A DNA stretch of 64,000 bases, from contig JADQCE010000002.1 in NCBI GenBank assembly GCA_016278265.1, positions 124,001-188,000 on the forward strand, read 5' to 3'. The notes beneath the pieces were generated by a model. That model was given only the letters and a program-made list of their open reading frames with translations. It had not been told where the DNA came from and did not search any database. Numbering within the stretch: position 1 is the stretch's first letter; each line of letters opens with the position of its first letter. This stretch comes from Halothiobacillus sp. (GTDB taxonomy: Bacteria > Pseudomonadota > Gammaproteobacteria > Halothiobacillales > Halothiobacillaceae). Below are positions 7,380-26,590 of the stretch, piece after piece. Both the position numbers and the translations under genes were made by a program.

Positions 7380-10053
<2,674 letters not shown>

Positions 10054-10085
10054 CGCGTGACTTGGTTCTCATCTAGGGGCTGGCG

Positions 10086-11168
10086 TCAGCTCTCGATCAG
10101 GCGCTCTAGGCGATAGGGTGCCGGGTCCATGGATGTCGGGCGTCCGGCCATGCGGTGGGCGAGCAGTTCGGCGGTCGCCGGGGCCATGGCCAGCCCATTG
10201 CGAAAGCCGCCGGTATTGACCCACAAGCCGGCAATCGAGGGATGCTCTCCAAGCAGTGGGATCTCGTCGCTCGAACCGGGCCGCAGGCCGGCCCAGCGAT
10301 GCGTGATGCGGGCCCCGGCCAGCTGCGGCCAAAGCCGGCAGGCGTGGGTGTGTAGCCGGGCCTGGGCCTCGGCATCCACCGTCTTGTCAAAGCCCGCGTA
10401 TTCCACCGTCGAGCCCACCACCACCGAGCCGTCGCGTCGCGGGATCAGGTAAACACCATTTTCCATCAGGATGCGATCGAGCCCGTTCTCCGACCGGGGT
10501 TCCAGGCGCAGCATCTGCCCACGAACCGGGAACAGGCTGCCTGCCGGCAGGCCCGGGATCAGCGCCTCGCTCCAGGCACCGGCCGTAATCACCACTCGGT
10601 CGGCGTGCAGATCACCCTCGCTGGTCGACACCCCACTCACATGACCCTCGCTCAGCAACACCTTGTCGGCGGCGCATTGTTCGCGCAGCTCGATACCTCG
10701 GGCGATCAACGTGTCAACGAGCGCGTCCAGCAGATAGGGGTTGCGCACGTTGGCTACCTCGGACAGCCAAAGCGCATCACCGTCGTGCTTGCCTTGCGGT
10801 CGCCACTGGTGGGCGATGCCGGCCGATGCGAGTGTCACACTGATTGATTCGATGCTCTCGCCTTCGCCAACCGGATCGAGGATTTCCATGCCGGTGACCC
10901 AGTGCTCGGGATCGATGTTGGAGTCGAGCGAGGCGAGCAGGTCGGGGTAACGGCGCATGCCGTCAGCAGCGAGGGCCAGTACGGGCTGGGGGTAGCGCCA
11001 GGCGTACAGCGGGCAGAGGATGCCGCCGCCGGCCCAGGAAGCCTCGGTGCCTGAGCGATGCCGGTCGAGCACGGCCACCCTGGCGCCATCCCGTTGCAGC
11101 GAGAGTGCACTGGTCAGGCCGGCGATGCCGGCGCCGACGACGATGATGTCGAAGCGGGTCGATCTCAC
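10086..11168 (-). CDS. thiO: FAD-dependent glycine oxidase (ThiO-type)
   Basis: D-amino-acid-oxidase-fold flavoenzyme, probably oxidising glycine to the imine used for the thiazole ring of thiamine. It has 360 residues. An N-terminal Rossmann motif DIIVVGAGIAGLTSAL (about residues 6-21) binds FAD; AWAGGG-type residues appear in EASWAGGGILCPLY, and the C-terminal GLRPGSSDEIPLLG and NTGGFRNGLAMAPA blocks are typical of ThiO. The GTG at 11168 gives the family length. No strong ribosome site is visible, so this start is uncertain; longer readings run into the repeat element upstream. No other thiamine gene is adjacent. Confidence 0.85.
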   Translation of the reverse strand: MRSTRFDIIVVGAGIAGLTSALSLQRDGARVAVLDRHRSGTEASWAGGGILCPLYAWRYPQPVLALAADGMRRYPDLLASLDSNIDPEHWVTGMEILDPVGEGESIESISVTLASAGIAHQWRPQGKHDGDALWLSEVANVRNPYLLDALVDTLIARGIELREQCAADKVLLSEGHVSGVSTSEGDLHADRVVITAGAWSEALIPGLPAGSLFPVRGQMLRLEPRSENGLDRILMENGVYLIPRRDGSVVVGSTVEYAGFDKTVDAEAQARLHTHACRLWPQLAGARITHRWAGLRPGSSDEIPLLGEHPSIAGLWVNTGGFRNGLAMAPATAELLAHRMAGRPTSMDPAPYRLERLIES

Positions 11169-20688: not shown

Positions 20689-20933
20689 GAATTCGCCGCT
20701 ATCCGGAATCAATGAGGCATCATAGTGTAGTTGCCCGGCCTCATGGACAGAAGAAAACCTGACGTCGGATCAACAATGTCGATCGCCACAACGTTGAAAT
20801 TTCGGGACACGGCGATCATTATTTAGAGACAGCTAATAAACGTGGCCTGCTCGCCCCCGAAACGGTCTCGTCGAACGGCCGGTTCGGCGTGGAGTCCCCG
20901 ATGGCGAAAGCGGGCACACCGGAGGAGAAAGCA

Positions 20934-21959
20934 ATGGAATTCAAAGAGCAGTTCCTGGCAACGCGCCGCCGCTTTTTGCGCAACATCGGGGTCACCGCCG
21001 GCCTGGCTGCCGCGCCCCTGTCGTGGTCCTCGCGTGTGTTCGCCGAGGAAAAGCTGGTGATCGAAGGCCCGCCGATGCCGGACATCCCGGCCACCGAGAT
21101 CACCGAGAACGTCTACGTGATCGTCTCGCCTTGGGGTTTCCCCTCCGAGGAAAACCAGGGGATGATGAGCAACGTCACCTTCGCGATTACGGAAAAGGGC
21201 GTCGTGGTGATCGACAGCGGCGCATCCCTGCAGATTGGTCGCATGGCCTTGCGCCAAATCCGCGAAATCACCGAAAAGCCCATTGCGGCGGTCTTCAATA
21301 CGCACTACCACGGTGACCACTGGCTGGGTAACCACGCCTTCGTCAACGAGAATCCGGACGTGCCGATCTACGCGCACGAGAAGACCGCCTCGGCCATTCG
21401 CACCAACCAGGGCGCATTCTGGGTCAGCCTGATGGAGCGCTCCACGGGCAACGCGATCGAGGGCACCGTGGTGACGCCGCCGAACAAGGTGGTCGGCCAT
21501 GGCGACGAGATTGATTTCGGCGACCTCACGATTCGGGTGCACTTCTACGGCACCGCGCATACCCCGTCGGATATCAGCCTCGAGCTGGTGGAAGAGGGGA
21601 TTGTTCATGTCGGCGACATCGCGATGAACAACCGCATCGCCTACATGGACGACGGCAGCTTCCTCGGGACCTTCAAGGCGTTCGATGCCCTCGAGCAGAA
21701 CGTGCCGGATGCGTTCTGGATTCCGGCGCACGGCTTTCCTGCCTACGATCTGCTCAAGCACAACCGCATCTTCTTTCAGGGCATCTACGAGTCTGCCGAG
21801 AAGGCCGTCGAGGAGATGGCCGGCCCGAGTCAGGCGAAAGTGTATGCACTGGAGGACGAGCGGGTGCAGTACTACGCCCCGTTTACGAACGGTTTCGACC
21901 AGAATATCGGCAAGTACGCGTCGCTGGCGTTTCTCGAGGCCGAAGCAGCTGCCTTCTAA
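20934..21959 (+). CDS. Tat-exported metallo-beta-lactamase-fold hydrolase
   Basis: Periplasmic metallo-hydrolase of 341 residues. A twin-arginine signal (RRRFLRNIGVTAGLAAAP, cleavage near VFAEE) precedes the domain with the metal motif FNTHYHGDHWLGNH (HxHxDH), a later His in HTPSDIS and the Asp in VHVGDIAMNN. The ATG at 20934 has GGAGGAG six bases upstream, a near-perfect site; an ATG 45 bases earlier lacks one. The family includes SoxH-like proteins and quinoprotein-relay hydrolases; its place ahead of YeeE/YedE and rhodanese genes suggests a role in periplasmic sulfur chemistry (inference). Substrate unknown. Confidence 0.82.
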   Translation: MEFKEQFLATRRRFLRNIGVTAGLAAAPLSWSSRVFAEEKLVIEGPPMPDIPATEITENVYVIVSPWGFPSEENQGMMSNVTFAITEKGVVVIDSGASLQIGRMALRQIREITEKPIAAVFNTHYHGDHWLGNHAFVNENPDVPIYAHEKTASAIRTNQGAFWVSLMERSTGNAIEGTVVTPPNKVVGHGDEIDFGDLTIRVHFYGTAHTPSDISLELVEEGIVHVGDIAMNNRIAYMDDGSFLGTFKAFDALEQNVPDAFWIPAHGFPAYDLLKHNRIFFQGIYESAEKAVEEMAGPSQAKVYALEDERVQYYAPFTNGFDQNIGKYASLAFLEAEAAAF

Positions 21960-22086: not shown

Positions 22087-22599
22087 ATGTCTTGCCAAGT
22101 TAGGCCGTTATGGCCCCCCTTCGTCGCCGGCATCGTGCTCGGCCTGGTCGTCTTGCTCACCTTCGTGCTGGTAGGCAACGGTATGGGTTCGTCCGGTGCC
22201 TTCGCCCGTGTGGCCACCGAGGTCGGTTTGCAGGTTGCGCCCGAAGCTACTCGTGAGAATGCCTACCTCGGTGGTATGGCCCAGGGCAATCCGCTTGCGG
22301 CATGGATCGTGGTCGCCGCTATCGGCACCCTGGTCGGCGCCATCCTCGCGGCGGTCTCCTCCGGGCGCTTTCGGGTCAAGGTCGACCGTGGTTCCGGTCG
22401 CATCGGTGTTGCGCCGCGCCTGTTGCTCGCCCTGGGTGGCGGTCTGCTGGCCGGGTTCGGCTCGCGGCTGGCGGCCGGGTGCACCAGCGGCGTCGGCCTG
22501 TCCAATACCGCTATGCTGGGCGTGGCCGGTTTTGTCTTCCTGATCGTATTCTTCGTGGTCGGGATTCTGGTCAGTCTGTTGATGCGGAGGGTTTGGTAA
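22087..22599 (+). CDS. YeeE/YedE family transporter, first half-protein
   Basis: Membrane protein of 170 residues, four to five helices, representing one half of the two-part YeeE/YedE (TsuA-like) sulfur-compound transporters. The diagnostic cysteine is Cys132 in RLAAGCTSGVGLSN. A second partner gene follows, its start overlapping this stop by one base (TAATG), so the two are surely made together. Family members import thiosulfate or related sulfur species; thiosulfate is therefore the leading guess. A strong purine run (CCAGGAGGTCC and AAGGA) precedes the ATG. Confidence 0.85.
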   Translation: MSCQVRPLWPPFVAGIVLGLVVLLTFVLVGNGMGSSGAFARVATEVGLQVAPEATRENAYLGGMAQGNPLAAWIVVAAIGTLVGAILAAVSSGRFRVKVDRGSGRIGVAPRLLLALGGGLLAGFGSRLAAGCTSGVGLSNTAMLGVAGFVFLIVFFVVGILVSLLMRRVW

Positions 22600-23264
22600 T
22601 GGATTACGGCACCGCGGGTACCGCACTGGCCACCGGCCTGCTGTTCGGCTTCGTGCTCGAGCAGGCCGGCTTTGGCTCTCCCTGCAAACTCACCGCCCAG
22701 TTTCGCCTCACCGACTGGTCGGTGTTCAAGGTCATGTTCTCGGCCATCATTGTCGCGGCGATCGGCATCCTGTTGCTGCAGGTGAACAACACCTTCGGCG
22801 CACAGGGGTTCTATGTCGCCGAAATGTATCTCTGGGGCACCGTGCTGGGCGCGGTGCTGATCGGGGCCGGTTTCGCCATTGGTGGCTACTGTCCCGGCAC
22901 GTCCGTGGTCGGGTTCGGTAGTGGTCGGATCGACGGGCTGGTGTTCATGCTCGGCATGGTCATCGGTGTCTGGGCCTTCGCCGGCGTCTATGACAGCGAC
23001 TTCATTCAGGCCGCGGTCACTGGGGCGCAGGTATCGGCCCGCACCGTGCCGGAACTGCTGGGCGTCTCGCCATGGCTGGTAGTGGCGGCGATGCTGCTAG
23101 TGCTGGCGGGCGGTTTCTTTGCCGGTCGCGCCCTCGAGCAGCGCAGTCACGGTGTCTACACCGCCGAGGACATCACCGAAGGGCGAGATCCCGGCGAGAG
23201 TGACGAGCTCGGTCGCGACCTGGGTCGAGAAGCCAGCGCCGCGCGCCGCACCGACGCCGATTGA
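22599..23264 (+). CDS. YeeE/YedE family transporter, second half-protein
   Basis: Partner of the preceding gene, 221 residues with about five membrane helices. It has the two other family cysteine motifs: Cys29 in GFGSPCKLTAQFRL and Cys98 in GGYCPGTSVVGFGSG. A hydrophilic, acidic C-terminal tail of ~40 residues (TEGRDPGESDELGRD) lies after the last helix and should be cytoplasmic or periplasmic. GGAGG lies nine bases before the ATG. Together the two halves would equal one full-length transporter, with the conserved Cys residues thought in this family to pass the sulfur substrate through the membrane. Confidence 0.85.
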   Translation: MDYGTAGTALATGLLFGFVLEQAGFGSPCKLTAQFRLTDWSVFKVMFSAIIVAAIGILLLQVNNTFGAQGFYVAEMYLWGTVLGAVLIGAGFAIGGYCPGTSVVGFGSGRIDGLVFMLGMVIGVWAFAGVYDSDFIQAAVTGAQVSARTVPELLGVSPWLVVAAMLLVLAGGFFAGRALEQRSHGVYTAEDITEGRDPGESDELGRDLGREASAARRTDAD

Positions 23265-23335: not shown

Positions 23336-23836
23336 ATGGAATCGAAGAAGATCGCCCGACAGGCGCGCGCGCGCCGCGCGCTCAAGTTGTCCATGCCGGC
23401 AATGGCGTTCACCGTGGGCGCGTCGCTTGCCGCAACCACCATGTTGCCGCTATCGGTGGCGGCGCAGACCCGGGGCGGTAATCCCTGCGCCCCGTCTTCC
23501 CGCGGTGGAAACCCCTGTGCGCCCTCTGCCCGTGGTGGCAACCCGTGCGCACCATCGGCTCGCGGCGGTAATCCGTGTGCGCCGTCGGCCCGGGGTGGCA
23601 ATCCATGCGCACCCTCGGCTCGTGGGGGTAATCCCTGTGCGCCGTCGGCCCGGGGCGGCAACCCCTGCGCACCCTCGGCCCGCGGTGGCAACCCCTGTGC
23701 GCCGTCAAGCCGGGGTGGCAATCCTTGCGCCCCGGACGCTCGCGGTGGCAATCCCTGTGCACCCGCTGCCCGTGGTGGCAACCCGTGCGCGCCGTCGGGG
23801 CGTGGCGGCAATCCCTGTGCGCCGGGCGGTCAGTAA
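23336..23836 (+). CDS. Exported cysteine-repeat protein (12 x RGGNPCAPSA)
   Basis: I do not recognise this 166-residue protein as a named family. Residues 1-45 are a basic leader plus hydrophobic segment (MAFTVGASLAATTMLPLS) ending AAQT, a likely signal peptide. Residues 46-165 are exactly twelve decapeptides with invariant R-G-G-N-P-C-A-P and variable last two residues (SS, SA x6, SS, DA, AA, SG, GG), then a final Gln. Each unit has one Cys, ten residues apart, so the mature protein is about 7% Cys and has no other domain. It is low in hydrophobics and probably disordered. GAGGAGAG precedes the ATG. It lies between the sulfur transporter pair and a periplasmic rhodanese; a thiol-based sulfur or metal carrier is a guess. 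Confidence 0.8.
   Translation: MESKKIARQARARRALKLSMPAMAFTVGASLAATTMLPLSVAAQTRGGNPCAPSSRGGNPCAPSARGGNPCAPSARGGNPCAPSARGGNPCAPSARGGNPCAPSARGGNPCAPSARGGNPCAPSSRGGNPCAPDARGGNPCAPAARGGNPCAPSGRGGNPCAPGGQ
23471..23830 (+). repeat. Twelve in-frame 30-bp tandem repeats
   Basis: Each 30-bp unit encodes one RGGNPCAPxx decapeptide. Units are not identical at DNA level: third-codon positions vary (GGC/GGT/GGG glycines, TGC/TGT cysteines) while the first eight amino acids never change. Confidence 0.95.
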
Positions 23837-23867: not shown

Positions 23868-24566
23868 ATGAGTGACGCACCAAACCACGCCTTGCCCGAT
23901 GATTGGCTCGATGCCGGTCTGGCGGCCGGTGACGAATGGCGCTCGATTCAGTCGGCCCTGGCCGCTGATAACCAGACCGTGCTCACCGAATTGTTCCGGG
24001 ACCACCCGGAAGAGGGCTTCGACTACTGGGCGCACTTTCCACAGGACGACGCCCGGGATCCGGTCAGTGGGGCGCGTTTCTACTATCACGCACATGACCC
24101 GGCCGAGTGGGCATCCAGCGAGCACGGCCACTTCCACTTGTTCGTTGCCGACGAGGACGAGCCGGGCTTTGCCCACGTGGCCGCGGTGTCGATGGACCGC
24201 CAAGGGCGTGCGCAACGCCTGTTTACTACCAACGGCTGGGTGACCGGTGAAACGGTTCGTCCCGCGGCGGAGTTGCTGGCCCTGTTGCCGAATGGCTTCG
24301 AGATCAACCGGGCTCGCCCGTCGTGGCTGGTGGGGCGGTGGTTGACCGCCCTGGTGGCGCTGTTGATGCCACAGATCCGCGAGTTGCTCGAGTTGCGGGA
24401 TCGTGCCTTGACGGCCGATTCCGACGACTGGCCCGATCCGGAGGTGCTGGCCGATCGGGACCGGCATGTCCTGAGCGAGTGTCCGCTGGACATGGAGGCG
24501 GTGTTGGCCGATTGGTCGCGGCGACTCGAGGCCCTGCAAGCGCAACTGATTTCCCCGCCCCGCTGA
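23868..24566 (+). CDS. Conserved hypothetical cytoplasmic protein
   Basis: Protein of 232 residues without signal peptide or membrane helix. The central part has a His-rich stretch, FYYHAHDPAEWASSEHGHFHLF (residues 69-90), which could bind metal, followed by HVAAVSMDRQGRAQRLFTTNGWVTGE, a beta-rich segment. The C-terminal half is helical and acidic. It may belong to a DUF family (I recall DUF6969 as having this HGHFHLF pattern, unverified). It starts 31 bp after the repeat-protein stop and ends 63 bp before the rhodanese gene, in the same direction, so co-expression with the sulfur cluster is likely. Function unknown. Confidence 0.75.
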   Translation: MSDAPNHALPDDWLDAGLAAGDEWRSIQSALAADNQTVLTELFRDHPEEGFDYWAHFPQDDARDPVSGARFYYHAHDPAEWASSEHGHFHLFVADEDEPGFAHVAAVSMDRQGRAQRLFTTNGWVTGETVRPAAELLALLPNGFEINRARPSWLVGRWLTALVALLMPQIRELLELRDRALTADSDDWPDPEVLADRDRHVLSECPLDMEAVLADWSRRLEALQAQLISPPR

Positions 24567-24629: not shown

Positions 24630-25625
24630 ATGGATTTCAAACGGTTTCTCGCTGTTCCCACCGGGGCGGCTGCCCTGGCCATCGCGCAAGGGGCCTGGGC
24701 ACTGGATGTGCCGGGTCCGGTGGTTGACCCGCAGTGGCTGAATGACAACCTGGAACAGGTCACCGTTCTGCAGATTGCCGGGTCGGAAAAGGCGTTTGCC
24801 ATGGCGCCGAAGTACGAGACCGTCGAGGGAAAGAAAGTCGTTTCCGTCGTCTCCGGTCACGTGCCGGGTGCCCAGTTCGTCGACTGGGGCAAGGTGCGCG
24901 TCGAGCGCATGGAGAACGGCAAGAAGGTCGGCAAGCTGATCCCGGAAAAGGCCGACTTCGAATCCTTGGTGCAGGCCCTGGGCGTGGACAAGAACGACAC
25001 GGTGGTGATCGTGCCGCTGGGCCTGTCCGGCTCGGATTACACCAAGGCCACCCGCCTGTACTGGCAGATGAAGTACTTCGGCCACGACGACATGGCCCTG
25101 CTCGACGGTGGCTTGGCCAACTGGCTGGCGGCAGGCTTTGACGCCGGTACTGGTCAGCCGGGGAAGGTCGAGGCCGGTGACTGGGTCGCGACCGACGAGC
25201 GTGACGAGATCCTGGCGACCTACGCCGAGGTTCGCGACGCGGTCGATTCCAACGGCAAGGTCCAGCTGCTGGATGCCCGCCCGCCGAATCAGTATCTGGG
25301 CGTGTTCAGCAAGTCCAAGACCGTGCCCGGTCACCTGCCTGGCGCCAAGAACCTGCCGACCGACGTGCTCGTGCGTGCGGACGGGGCGGCGGCCACTTTC
25401 CTGCCGGCGTCGAGCTATCGTTCGATCATGGAGTTCAAGGACATCGATCCGAGCGGTGCGGCCATCGCGTACTGCAACTCGGGCAACCTGGCGTCAGGTG
25501 TGTGGTTCGTTGCGAGCGAGATCATGGGCAACGGTGACGTCGCCTTGTACGACGGCTCCATGAAGGAATACGGCATGTATGTCGACGACGGGGCGACCTC
25601 GGTCAACCCGGCGCAGCTCTACTGA
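24630..25625 (+). CDS. Periplasmic two-domain sulfurtransferase (rhodanese)
   Basis: Transfers sulfane sulfur, for example from thiosulfate to a thiol acceptor. The 331-residue protein has a signal peptide (KRFLAVPTGAAALAIAQGAWA, cleavage about residue 25) and two rhodanese domains. The N-terminal domain lacks the catalytic Cys (VIVPLGLSGSDYTKATR in the loop region), as usual for two-domain enzymes. The C-terminal domain has Cys282 in IAYCNSGNLASG, an active-site loop with CNSGNLAS. GAAGGAG lies upstream of the ATG. It is last in the sulfur cluster and is followed by a strong terminator. Confidence 0.9.
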   Translation: MDFKRFLAVPTGAAALAIAQGAWALDVPGPVVDPQWLNDNLEQVTVLQIAGSEKAFAMAPKYETVEGKKVVSVVSGHVPGAQFVDWGKVRVERMENGKKVGKLIPEKADFESLVQALGVDKNDTVVIVPLGLSGSDYTKATRLYWQMKYFGHDDMALLDGGLANWLAAGFDAGTGQPGKVEAGDWVATDERDEILATYAEVRDAVDSNGKVQLLDARPPNQYLGVFSKSKTVPGHLPGAKNLPTDVLVRADGAAATFLPASSYRSIMEFKDIDPSGAAIAYCNSGNLASGVWFVASEIMGNGDVALYDGSMKEYGMYVDDGATSVNPAQLY

Positions 25626-26380: not shown

Positions 26381-26590
26381 ATGTTTCTCAAGCGCAAGGA
26401 CAACGACAACATGATCGAGATCATCGATCTGGAAACCCTCGCTGACCCCGCCCTACCGAGCGTGATGGGCCGGCAGCATGCGGGCGAGGAGATGCAGGAC
26501 GAGGAAAGCTTCGAGAAAGAGGATCTGGAATTTCCGTCCGGTGAGCCACTGCCGCGCTGCTGGATGGACCTTCATTGGCGAGAAGACTGA
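26381..26590 (+). CDS. Conserved small acidic protein
   Basis: 69 residues, beginning FLKRKDNDNMIEIIDLETLADP and containing GRQHAGEEMQDEE and FPSGEPLPRCWMD. I recall this pattern (GR.H.GEE.QD.E.F.K..L.FPSGE.LP.CW) as a widespread small protein in Gammaproteobacteria that is often, without support, annotated as an acetyltransferase; it is far too short for that. GGAGATCGGCGC precedes the ATG. A hairpin terminator follows. Function unknown. Confidence 0.75.
   Translation: MFLKRKDNDNMIEIIDLETLADPALPSVMGRQHAGEEMQDEESFEKEDLEFPSGEPLPRCWMDLHWRED

Follow-up and report, generated by a model that had tools for sequence, protein, structure and literature searches.

An exported protein that consists of little more than one cysteine-bearing decapeptide, repeated twelve times amid genes of sulfur type, raises the question of what such a chain of thiols is for and which neighbouring gene, if any, it works with. 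We address this question for a locus of Halothiobacillus sp., starting from a stretch of 64,000 nucleotides of one contig (the window) and extending the comparison to other Pseudomonadota. The gene and its parts lie as follows.

23336-23836, + strand: exported-looking repeat protein of 166 amino acids (ORF list; signal-like N-terminus and 12 single-cysteine decapeptides)
23336-23467, + strand: signal-peptide-like region, residues 1-44 (cleavage near VAA/QT by eye; aligned with 7 relatives)
23471-23830, + strand: 12 tandem RGGNPCAPxx units of 30 bp each (sequence and TRF)

The earlier note on this DNA had described twelve RGGNPCAPxx units with one cysteine per ten residues, and they are present as described: RGGNPCAP occurs twelve times at residues 46-165 with a spacing of exactly 10, and TRF calls the tandem array at 23469-23824. 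The mature part (122 aa) is composed of G27 P24 A21 R12 N12 C12 S11 T1 D1 Q1, and the repeat ORF is alone among the ORFs of the window in having at least two NPC motifs. Its AF2 model has a mean pLDDT of 40.6 and no fold, the protein matches no family in Pfam, NCBIfam or PADLOC, and tblastn against plasmid records yielded no match.

That the peptide is conserved rather than the DNA, as had also been suggested, is borne out by comparison of the units with one another. Residues 1-8 of the unit are invariant in all 12 while third codon positions vary, so all nonsynonymous differences fall in the two linker residues, and unit-to-unit comparison within 23471-23830 gives a pS of 0.70 and a pN of 0.07 (ratio 0.10); the repeat array of 23336-23836 is under purifying selection. 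Loss of the cysteine, which the earlier note had proposed to look for among relatives, was not found: all 146 of 146 NPxAP units keep it in 16 sequence rows of close relatives, a set in which L004 and L053 are one sequence and several rows end at contig ends. Copy number, in arrays not cut by a contig end, ranges from 4 (L012) to 14 (L002). The array at 23471-23830 is also partly a 60-bp higher-order repeat, in that cysteine codons alternate strictly between TGC and TGT through all 12 units and third-position agreement between units is 0.50 at even versus 0.32 at odd separation (10 of 5000 shuffles as high). This even/odd gap is absent from all 7 relatives checked, so the arrays seem to have been reshaped independently with the peptide sequence held. 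The 60-bp periodicity points to past slippage, and would favour reading the repeats as chance or a slippage artefact without peptide-level selection; set against it are the pN/pS ratio, the unbroken cysteine retention and the occurrence of the same motif in distant genomes, which leave that reading a negligible probability, and the first two refute a pure slippage artefact.

The repeat gene is surrounded by the following genes.

20889-21959, + strand: MBL-fold hydrolase with a signal-like N-terminus (by eye), resembling SoxH/quinoprotein-relay hydrolases (PF00753, 2e-23)
22087-22599, + strand: short YeeE/YedE half of PmpA-like layout, with one AGC motif (PF04143, 6e-19, profile 176-308, the C-terminal half of Sulf_transp)
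22599-23264, + strand: short YeeE/YedE half of PmpB-like layout, also DUF6691 (PF04143, 4e-17, profile 3-148, the N-terminal half)
23868-24566, + strand: DUF6969 protein of 232 aa (PF22308, 2e-58), 31 bp after the repeat gene
24630-25625, + strand: rhodanese with a signal-like N-terminus (by eye) and a YCNSGNLASG loop (PF00581, two stretches, 1e-18)

The YeeE pair and the rhodanese flank the repeat gene as the earlier note stated, and the DUF6969 gene between repeat and rhodanese had been missed there. The layout of the two YeeE halves matches that of PmpA and PmpB, which hold the C- and N-terminal Sulf_transp half, respectively (PMC11582611). The MBL hydrolase scores 148 bits against TIGR04559, below its cut-off of 280. 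The repeat protein has 15 close relatives in genomes with a name; 13 of these genomes bear the title Guyparkeria, Halothiobacillus or Halothiobacillaceae, and the other two are a Rhodoblastus MAG and a MAG titled just Proteobacteria. Where the contig reaches, the Halothiobacillaceae gene order is FUR, MBL hydrolase, YeeE half, YeeE half, repeat, DUF6969, rhodanese, and the Rhodoblastus MAG retains the YeeE halves, repeat and DUF6969. The MBL hydrolase, present in 9 of the 15 close loci, is conserved in the Halothiobacillaceae cluster; as a query against the 71 DUF6969 loci described below, the window's copy matches only the window's own locus. Only L015, on a 12.6 kb contig with no YeeE, DUF6969 or rhodanese match, lacks DUF6969 on a long enough contig, and a DUF6969 gene lies elsewhere in its genome. 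A 69-aa protein without a Pfam match (26381-26590, + strand) follows a baeRF/Host_attach gene in four Guyparkeria loci, where it is 92-97% identical.

The DUF6969 protein (23868-24566) scores 197.8 bits against PF22308, for which the gathering cut-off is 27. An alignment of 38 members has 10 invariant columns (H74, H76, E85, G87, H88, F89, H90, H103, N122 and V125), six of which are His or Glu, and H86 is nearly invariant in the same sequences. The HxH...E...H arrangement resembles a cupin motif; the protein has no cupin match in Pfam, and no row labelled cupin stands among the PDB hits listed. In the AF2 model (pLDDT 86.8, pTM 0.86) five central strands contain most of the invariant residues, some of them at strand ends, and strand pairing suggests that H74, H76, H86, H88, H90 and H103 may share one face of the sheet in the manner of a metal site. 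No signal peptide is visible by eye in the window's DUF6969 or in the aligned set, so its expected place of action is the cytoplasm, at a stage when the peptide has yet to be exported. Searches for relatives of known structure gave nothing convincing: the best E of the DUF6969 profile against PDB sequences was 1.9 (FAD:protein FMN transferase, a chance-like match), Foldseek with the model gave no convincing relative (best E 1.1), and VIA-align on 758 Foldseek candidates reached a best Z of 3.6 (rmsd 5.3 over 86 residues), a result by which a new fold is not proven. The window protein has no match to PF05114 (MNIO). No function of DUF6969 (PF22308) is on record in the libraries and literature searched, and literature naming it was not found.

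DUF6969 was detected in 11 of 299 genomes of a phylum sample, 30 of 369 of the window's class, 61 of 289 of the class of genome G087 (taken by inference to be Alphaproteobacteria) and 0 of 14 control genomes. From 71 of the 97 genomes with a match, 71 DUF6969 loci of up to 18 kb each (1.01 Mb in total) were collected; three genomes of the window's genus and 23 of the 57 new genomes of the G087-class search were left out, those kept from that search standing mostly at the top of the score list, and some loci end at contig ends (e.g. L032, L105, L118, L155). As controls, 20 kb were taken from elsewhere in each of 40 of these genomes (0.80 Mb); the 40 control regions start at round coordinates chosen by hand, not at random. 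ORFs were read from stop to stop under simple motif and hydrophobicity rules.

Repeats of the xPC type accompany DUF6969 in most of these loci. ORFs with at least three NPC number 42 in 32 of the 71 loci versus 0 in the 40 controls, and exported-looking ORFs with at least three close PC motifs occur in 41 of 71 loci versus 0 of 40; the latter rule missed five loci with NPC repeats, the window's own included, and all five are in the union of the two tests, which finds xPC repeats in 46 of 71 loci versus 0 of 40 control regions. Of 45 measured repeat-DUF6969 distances, 43 are at most 2.5 kb and 32 at most 200 bp; in 27 of those 32 the two genes share a strand. A looser test for at least five close cysteines behind a hydrophobic N-terminus finds 43 of 71 loci and 7 of 40 controls, so the separating feature is the PC motif more than cysteine itself. 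At the level of whole genomes, 32 of the 61 members of the 289-genome sample that carry DUF6969, and 7 of the 228 that lack it, contain a DNA pattern encoding NPCxxxNPC (Fisher p 4e-19). The DNA of six of those seven was inspected (G032 is the seventh): G654 has, on a short contig, an open frame with three NPC that may be real, and in the five others no frame contains more than two NPC. The correspondence is incomplete in the other direction, with no xPC repeat in the fetched stretch of 25 of the 71 loci and no exact NPCxxxNPC pattern in 29 of the 61 DUF6969-bearing genomes; some genomes without a linked repeat carry one elsewhere (e.g. G016). Three of the 25 loci have cysteine repeats of other kinds (GCCAAEGC, CAATC, GCCGCC), at L034:8682-9020, L108:8483-8716 and L109:8425-8628, all on the - strand. 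xPC-repeat proteins and DUF6969 thus form a genetic pair across the sampled Pseudomonadota, and the two are very probably functional partners.

Among 85 peptides of this exported-looking, unnamed Pseudomonadota class, a set that holds near relatives, PC follows N (0.78) or S (0.14), a preference partly built in by keeping only peptides with at least two PC preceded by N or S; the cysteine is followed by A, G, N or S and then by A, P or L, and the spacers are free. A separate list, which served for viewing only, has a few rows that are out-of-frame readings. Motif variants include NPCAP, NPCAAK, NPCNPC and SPCGL, and spacers vary by lineage, with RGG...xx in the window, AAK in many members and NPCNPC arrays elsewhere. 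In part of the taxonomic class to which the window belongs, the repeats are acidic SPCGL/SPCSL units behind a conserved leader of a hydrophobic segment plus DHTRHxLP; rhizobial members are mostly APC, and their leader is comparable, with DHHNHPVP in S. meliloti 1021 and DHASH in Ciceribacter. A hydrophobic segment with a DHTRHxLP-like stretch was seen in L110, L112, L115-L119, L122 and others, with rhizobial forms in L227 and L230, and is perhaps a membrane anchor or recognition leader.

Some xPC arrays are fused to haem domains, for example cytochrome P460 (PF16694), and the cysteine array is therefore a module. P460-like domains stand behind 12-21 xPC motifs at L132:2881-4044, L141:8986-10293 and L140:9132-10265, all on the - strand (Pfam on L132 only). 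In four loci (L031, L097, L098, L107) a SoxA/TsdA-like domain (PF21342) has repeats on both flanks, scoring 39.3, 27.6, 39.3 and 27.9 bits against a cut-off of 27, which two barely exceed; CCP_MauG also matches these domains, and the L031 fusion reaches 31 bits against TIGR04484, below the cut-off of 110. Aligned by eye, all four have the haem-ligand cysteine at the expected place and Met in place of Arg four residues before it. This Arg is invariant in TsdA and SoxA (Arg119 and Cys123 of TsdA; PMC4423706). Since this Arg is missing, we do not claim firmly that the fused domains have SoxA/TsdA activity. These fusions, along with the coupling to DUF6969, YeeE and rhodanese, also speak against a disulfide-linked extracellular or surface material, an option in the earlier note that gained no support here; a low-complexity, G/P/A-rich chain with one cysteine per unit and a variable copy number would suit such a material, which we regard as highly improbable.

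Plasmid records with DUF6969 number 168, and a PC peptide stands beside DUF6969 in three of the four looked at. On pSymA of Sinorhizobium meliloti 1021, a peptide with five PC motifs immediately precedes an open DUF6969 frame (Pfam 4e-71); in Ciceribacter thiooxidans, a Sulf_transp gene (3e-29), the PC peptide and DUF6969 follow one another; and Skermanella mucosa pSM-3 (L229) has DUF6969, an NPC peptide, DUF302, an ECF sigma factor and NrsF. In Azospirillum sp. B510 no PC peptide lies within 6 kb of DUF6969, which adjoins Mla-type transport genes; the only PC run is antisense to DUF6969. In L229:6816-8641 the NPC peptide adjoins the DUF302, ECF sigma and NrsF genes, and DUF302 homologues occur in L097 and L098 as well.

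The company kept by the pair varies among lineages. Within 4 kb of DUF6969, YeeE genes occur at 19 of 71 loci, rhodanese at 16, both at 15, the SoxA/TsdA-like fused cytochrome at 4, FGE-like proteins at 16 and P460 at 13, and each of these is at 0 of 40 controls. The earlier note had placed the repeat protein among sulfur genes, and this stands for close homologues, 14 of 15 of which have YeeE and/or rhodanese adjoining the repeat gene; it fails for the wider xPC class, where sulfur-type genes are at only 23 of 71 loci, FGE-like/P460 genes at 22, both at 2 and neither at 28, and a general sulfur role for the class is rejected. On the DUF6969 tree, a quick tree in which many forks are weak and several branches long, the sulfur context takes 9 changes, at least 5 of them forced, versus a shuffled mean of 19.7 (0 of 500 as low), so the context has been gained or lost several times. 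The sulfur link holds for the window's lineage and several others, not for the whole class. An FGE-sulfatase-domain protein (PF03781) is near DUF6969 in L139:514-1410 and 15 other loci, 15 of the 16 being in the G087 class, and that of L139 has a signal-like start and a GCGVC motif.

Four kinds of known system bear comparison. Metallothioneins are small cysteine-rich chains, and the repeat protein is like them in this; unlike them, it looks exported, bears regular single cysteines in an invariant frame and has a regular partner gene. SoxYZ presents one reactive cysteine on a folded carrier, unlike the 12 cysteines here on a chain without predicted fold, and the repeat protein has no match to SoxY or SoxZ families in Pfam or NCBIfam. 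Like SoxYZ (PMC5336275, PMC4423706), it would have accessible periplasmic cysteines near sulfur-related genes, with some xPC repeats fused to a SoxA/TsdA-like haem domain. The window also resembles the PmpAB/SoxT/TsuA group of YeeE transporters in its short YeeE halves, of the PmpA and PmpB kind, with a sulfur transferase (rhodanese) in the cluster (PMC11582611); unlike these, the window's cluster adds the repeat protein and DUF6969, and no TusA/YeeD-like gene is among the cluster genes scanned with Pfam and NCBIfam.

The closest likeness in architecture is to MNIO RiPP systems of Pseudomonadota (bufferins, EGKCG oxazolins, captophorins), in which an iron enzyme modifies cysteines of a Sec-exported precursor with repeated cysteine motifs and the metal-type partner is clustered with it (PMC12452194, PMC12668002). 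The window's protein likewise looks exported, as judged from sequence and hydrophobicity, and has a repeated cysteine motif. Unlike those systems, its partner is DUF6969 and not MNIO/DUF692, its motif is xPC and not EGKCG, no copper link was seen, and modification is a proposal. MNIO membership is ruled out by gene content: no PF05114 gene lies in the cluster or elsewhere in the window, the single one in the genome being on another contig, and MNIO is near 1 of the 71 DUF6969 loci versus 1 of the 40 controls. That one match is in L100 (G427), where the less than 3 kb of 7395-10240 hold an MNIO gene together with DUF6969 and two NPC peptides.

This likeness suggests the chief rival to a sulfur carrier, namely that the cysteine array, modified by DUF6969 or not, is a periplasmic metal buffer, probably for Cu(I), like the MNIO thiooxazole peptides (bufferins/captophorins). 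We rate it as doubtful taken alone and nearly as likely as the sulfur carrier; with the same reserve, the sulfur genes would lie nearby as sulfur oxidisers need such a buffer or cuproenzymes are involved. GKCG/GACG motifs mixed with NPC in some NPC proteins (L031, L107) speak for it, as does the FGE family, whose members are copper enzymes. The architecture equals that of MNIO systems, with a Sec-exported precursor of repeated Glu-Gly-Lys-Cys-Gly and a dedicated metalloenzyme, and Skermanella pSM-3 has an ECF sigma factor and NrsF beside its DUF6969 and NPC peptide, sigma factors and NrsF being reported in bufferin clusters (PMC12452194). Against a copper buffer, no recognisable copper gene was seen by eye in the neighbour clusters present at 5 or more of the 71 loci, homologues of the Skermanella sigma factor were at 2 of 71 and of NrsF at 0 of 71 (a weak test, with a 51-residue query), MNIO is as rare near DUF6969 as given above, and the mature repeat of the window protein has no Met or His.

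The overall explanation to which we tentatively incline, at somewhat less than even odds, is that the repeat protein is an exported, thiol-bearing partner of DUF6969. DUF6969 would be a cytoplasmic metalloenzyme, as the absence of a visible signal peptide and the nearly invariant His/Glu set suggest, that reads xPC and alters each cysteine, or readies it in some other way, before export; whether it acts on the cysteines of the repeats we put at an even chance. This maturation step is proposed by analogy with MNIO systems (PMC12452194, PMC12668002). The peptide would then be exported and stay unfolded with all 12 cysteines accessible, given its signal-like N-terminus and lack of predicted fold. 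In the window's cluster the periplasmic array may serve as a multivalent carrier, or as a buffer, for sulfane sulfur, which the YeeE halves and the rhodanese suggest as natural cargo; the rhodanese would load or unload the array, and the array would feed the short YeeE (PmpAB-like) pair. Such a sulfane-sulfur role is plausible at rather less than an even chance. Periplasmic cysteine can carry sulfur cargo in SoxYZ (PMC5336275, PMC4423706). Points against a sulfur role are the Arg missing from the fused domain, the occurrence of Hyphomicrobium pmpAB in a PQQ alcohol-oxidation cluster, not linked there to sulfur oxidation (PMC11582611), and the leaning of the window's MBL gene to the PQQ-relay family.

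DUF6969 could instead be a chaperone or regulator and not an enzyme. One such account leaves the repeats unmodified and has DUF6969 bind metal and serve as chaperone, export factor or redox guard, so that the cysteines stay reduced or metal-free until export; the same pairing data fit it, as does the lack of a known enzyme fold for DUF6969, and the strict conservation of His/Glu and of the repeated motif, which looks catalytic and substrate-like without being proof, makes it unlikely in our estimate. For the preferred reading, that of an exported partner prepared by DUF6969, other lineages have the same module wired to P460 or SoxA/TsdA-like c-type cytochromes or to FGE-like proteins, and this varied wiring indicates that the common denominator is the cysteine array with DUF6969, not one substrate. 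In its fullest form, to which we give a roughly one-in-three standing, DUF6969 is a new cysteine-modifying metalloenzyme family, with a fold not yet in the PDB, that acts on xPC motifs, and its product is a periplasmic multi-site carrier plugged by different lineages into thiosulfate/sulfane-sulfur handling, SoxA/TsdA-like or P460 cytochromes, or FGE-like proteins.

In the libraries searched, no described relative exists for the repeat protein or for DUF6969, and no printed account of the two together was found; literature on NPC-repeat peptides was, judged from titles, only unrelated work, and motifs shown in figures are not searchable, so an earlier notice is possible. Should DUF6969 make a known modification, the system would be a variant of the exported cysteine-repeat peptide kind. 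If the proposal is true, exported cysteine arrays matured by a metalloenzyme would have a second widespread class next to the MNIO products, and this class would be the first to be built as a polymer-like sulfur relay. The pairing suggests that arrays of reactive cysteines are made and put to use in a manner not yet described, and through a defined peptide motif it gives DUF6969, widespread and without recorded function, a testable candidate substrate. The cytochrome fusions offer a second handle on the role of the arrays, and an intact-looking pair is present in a laboratory strain, Sinorhizobium meliloti 1021. For sulfur oxidisers, the array is a candidate for a missing step, the buffering of sulfane sulfur and its handover to YeeE-type importers.
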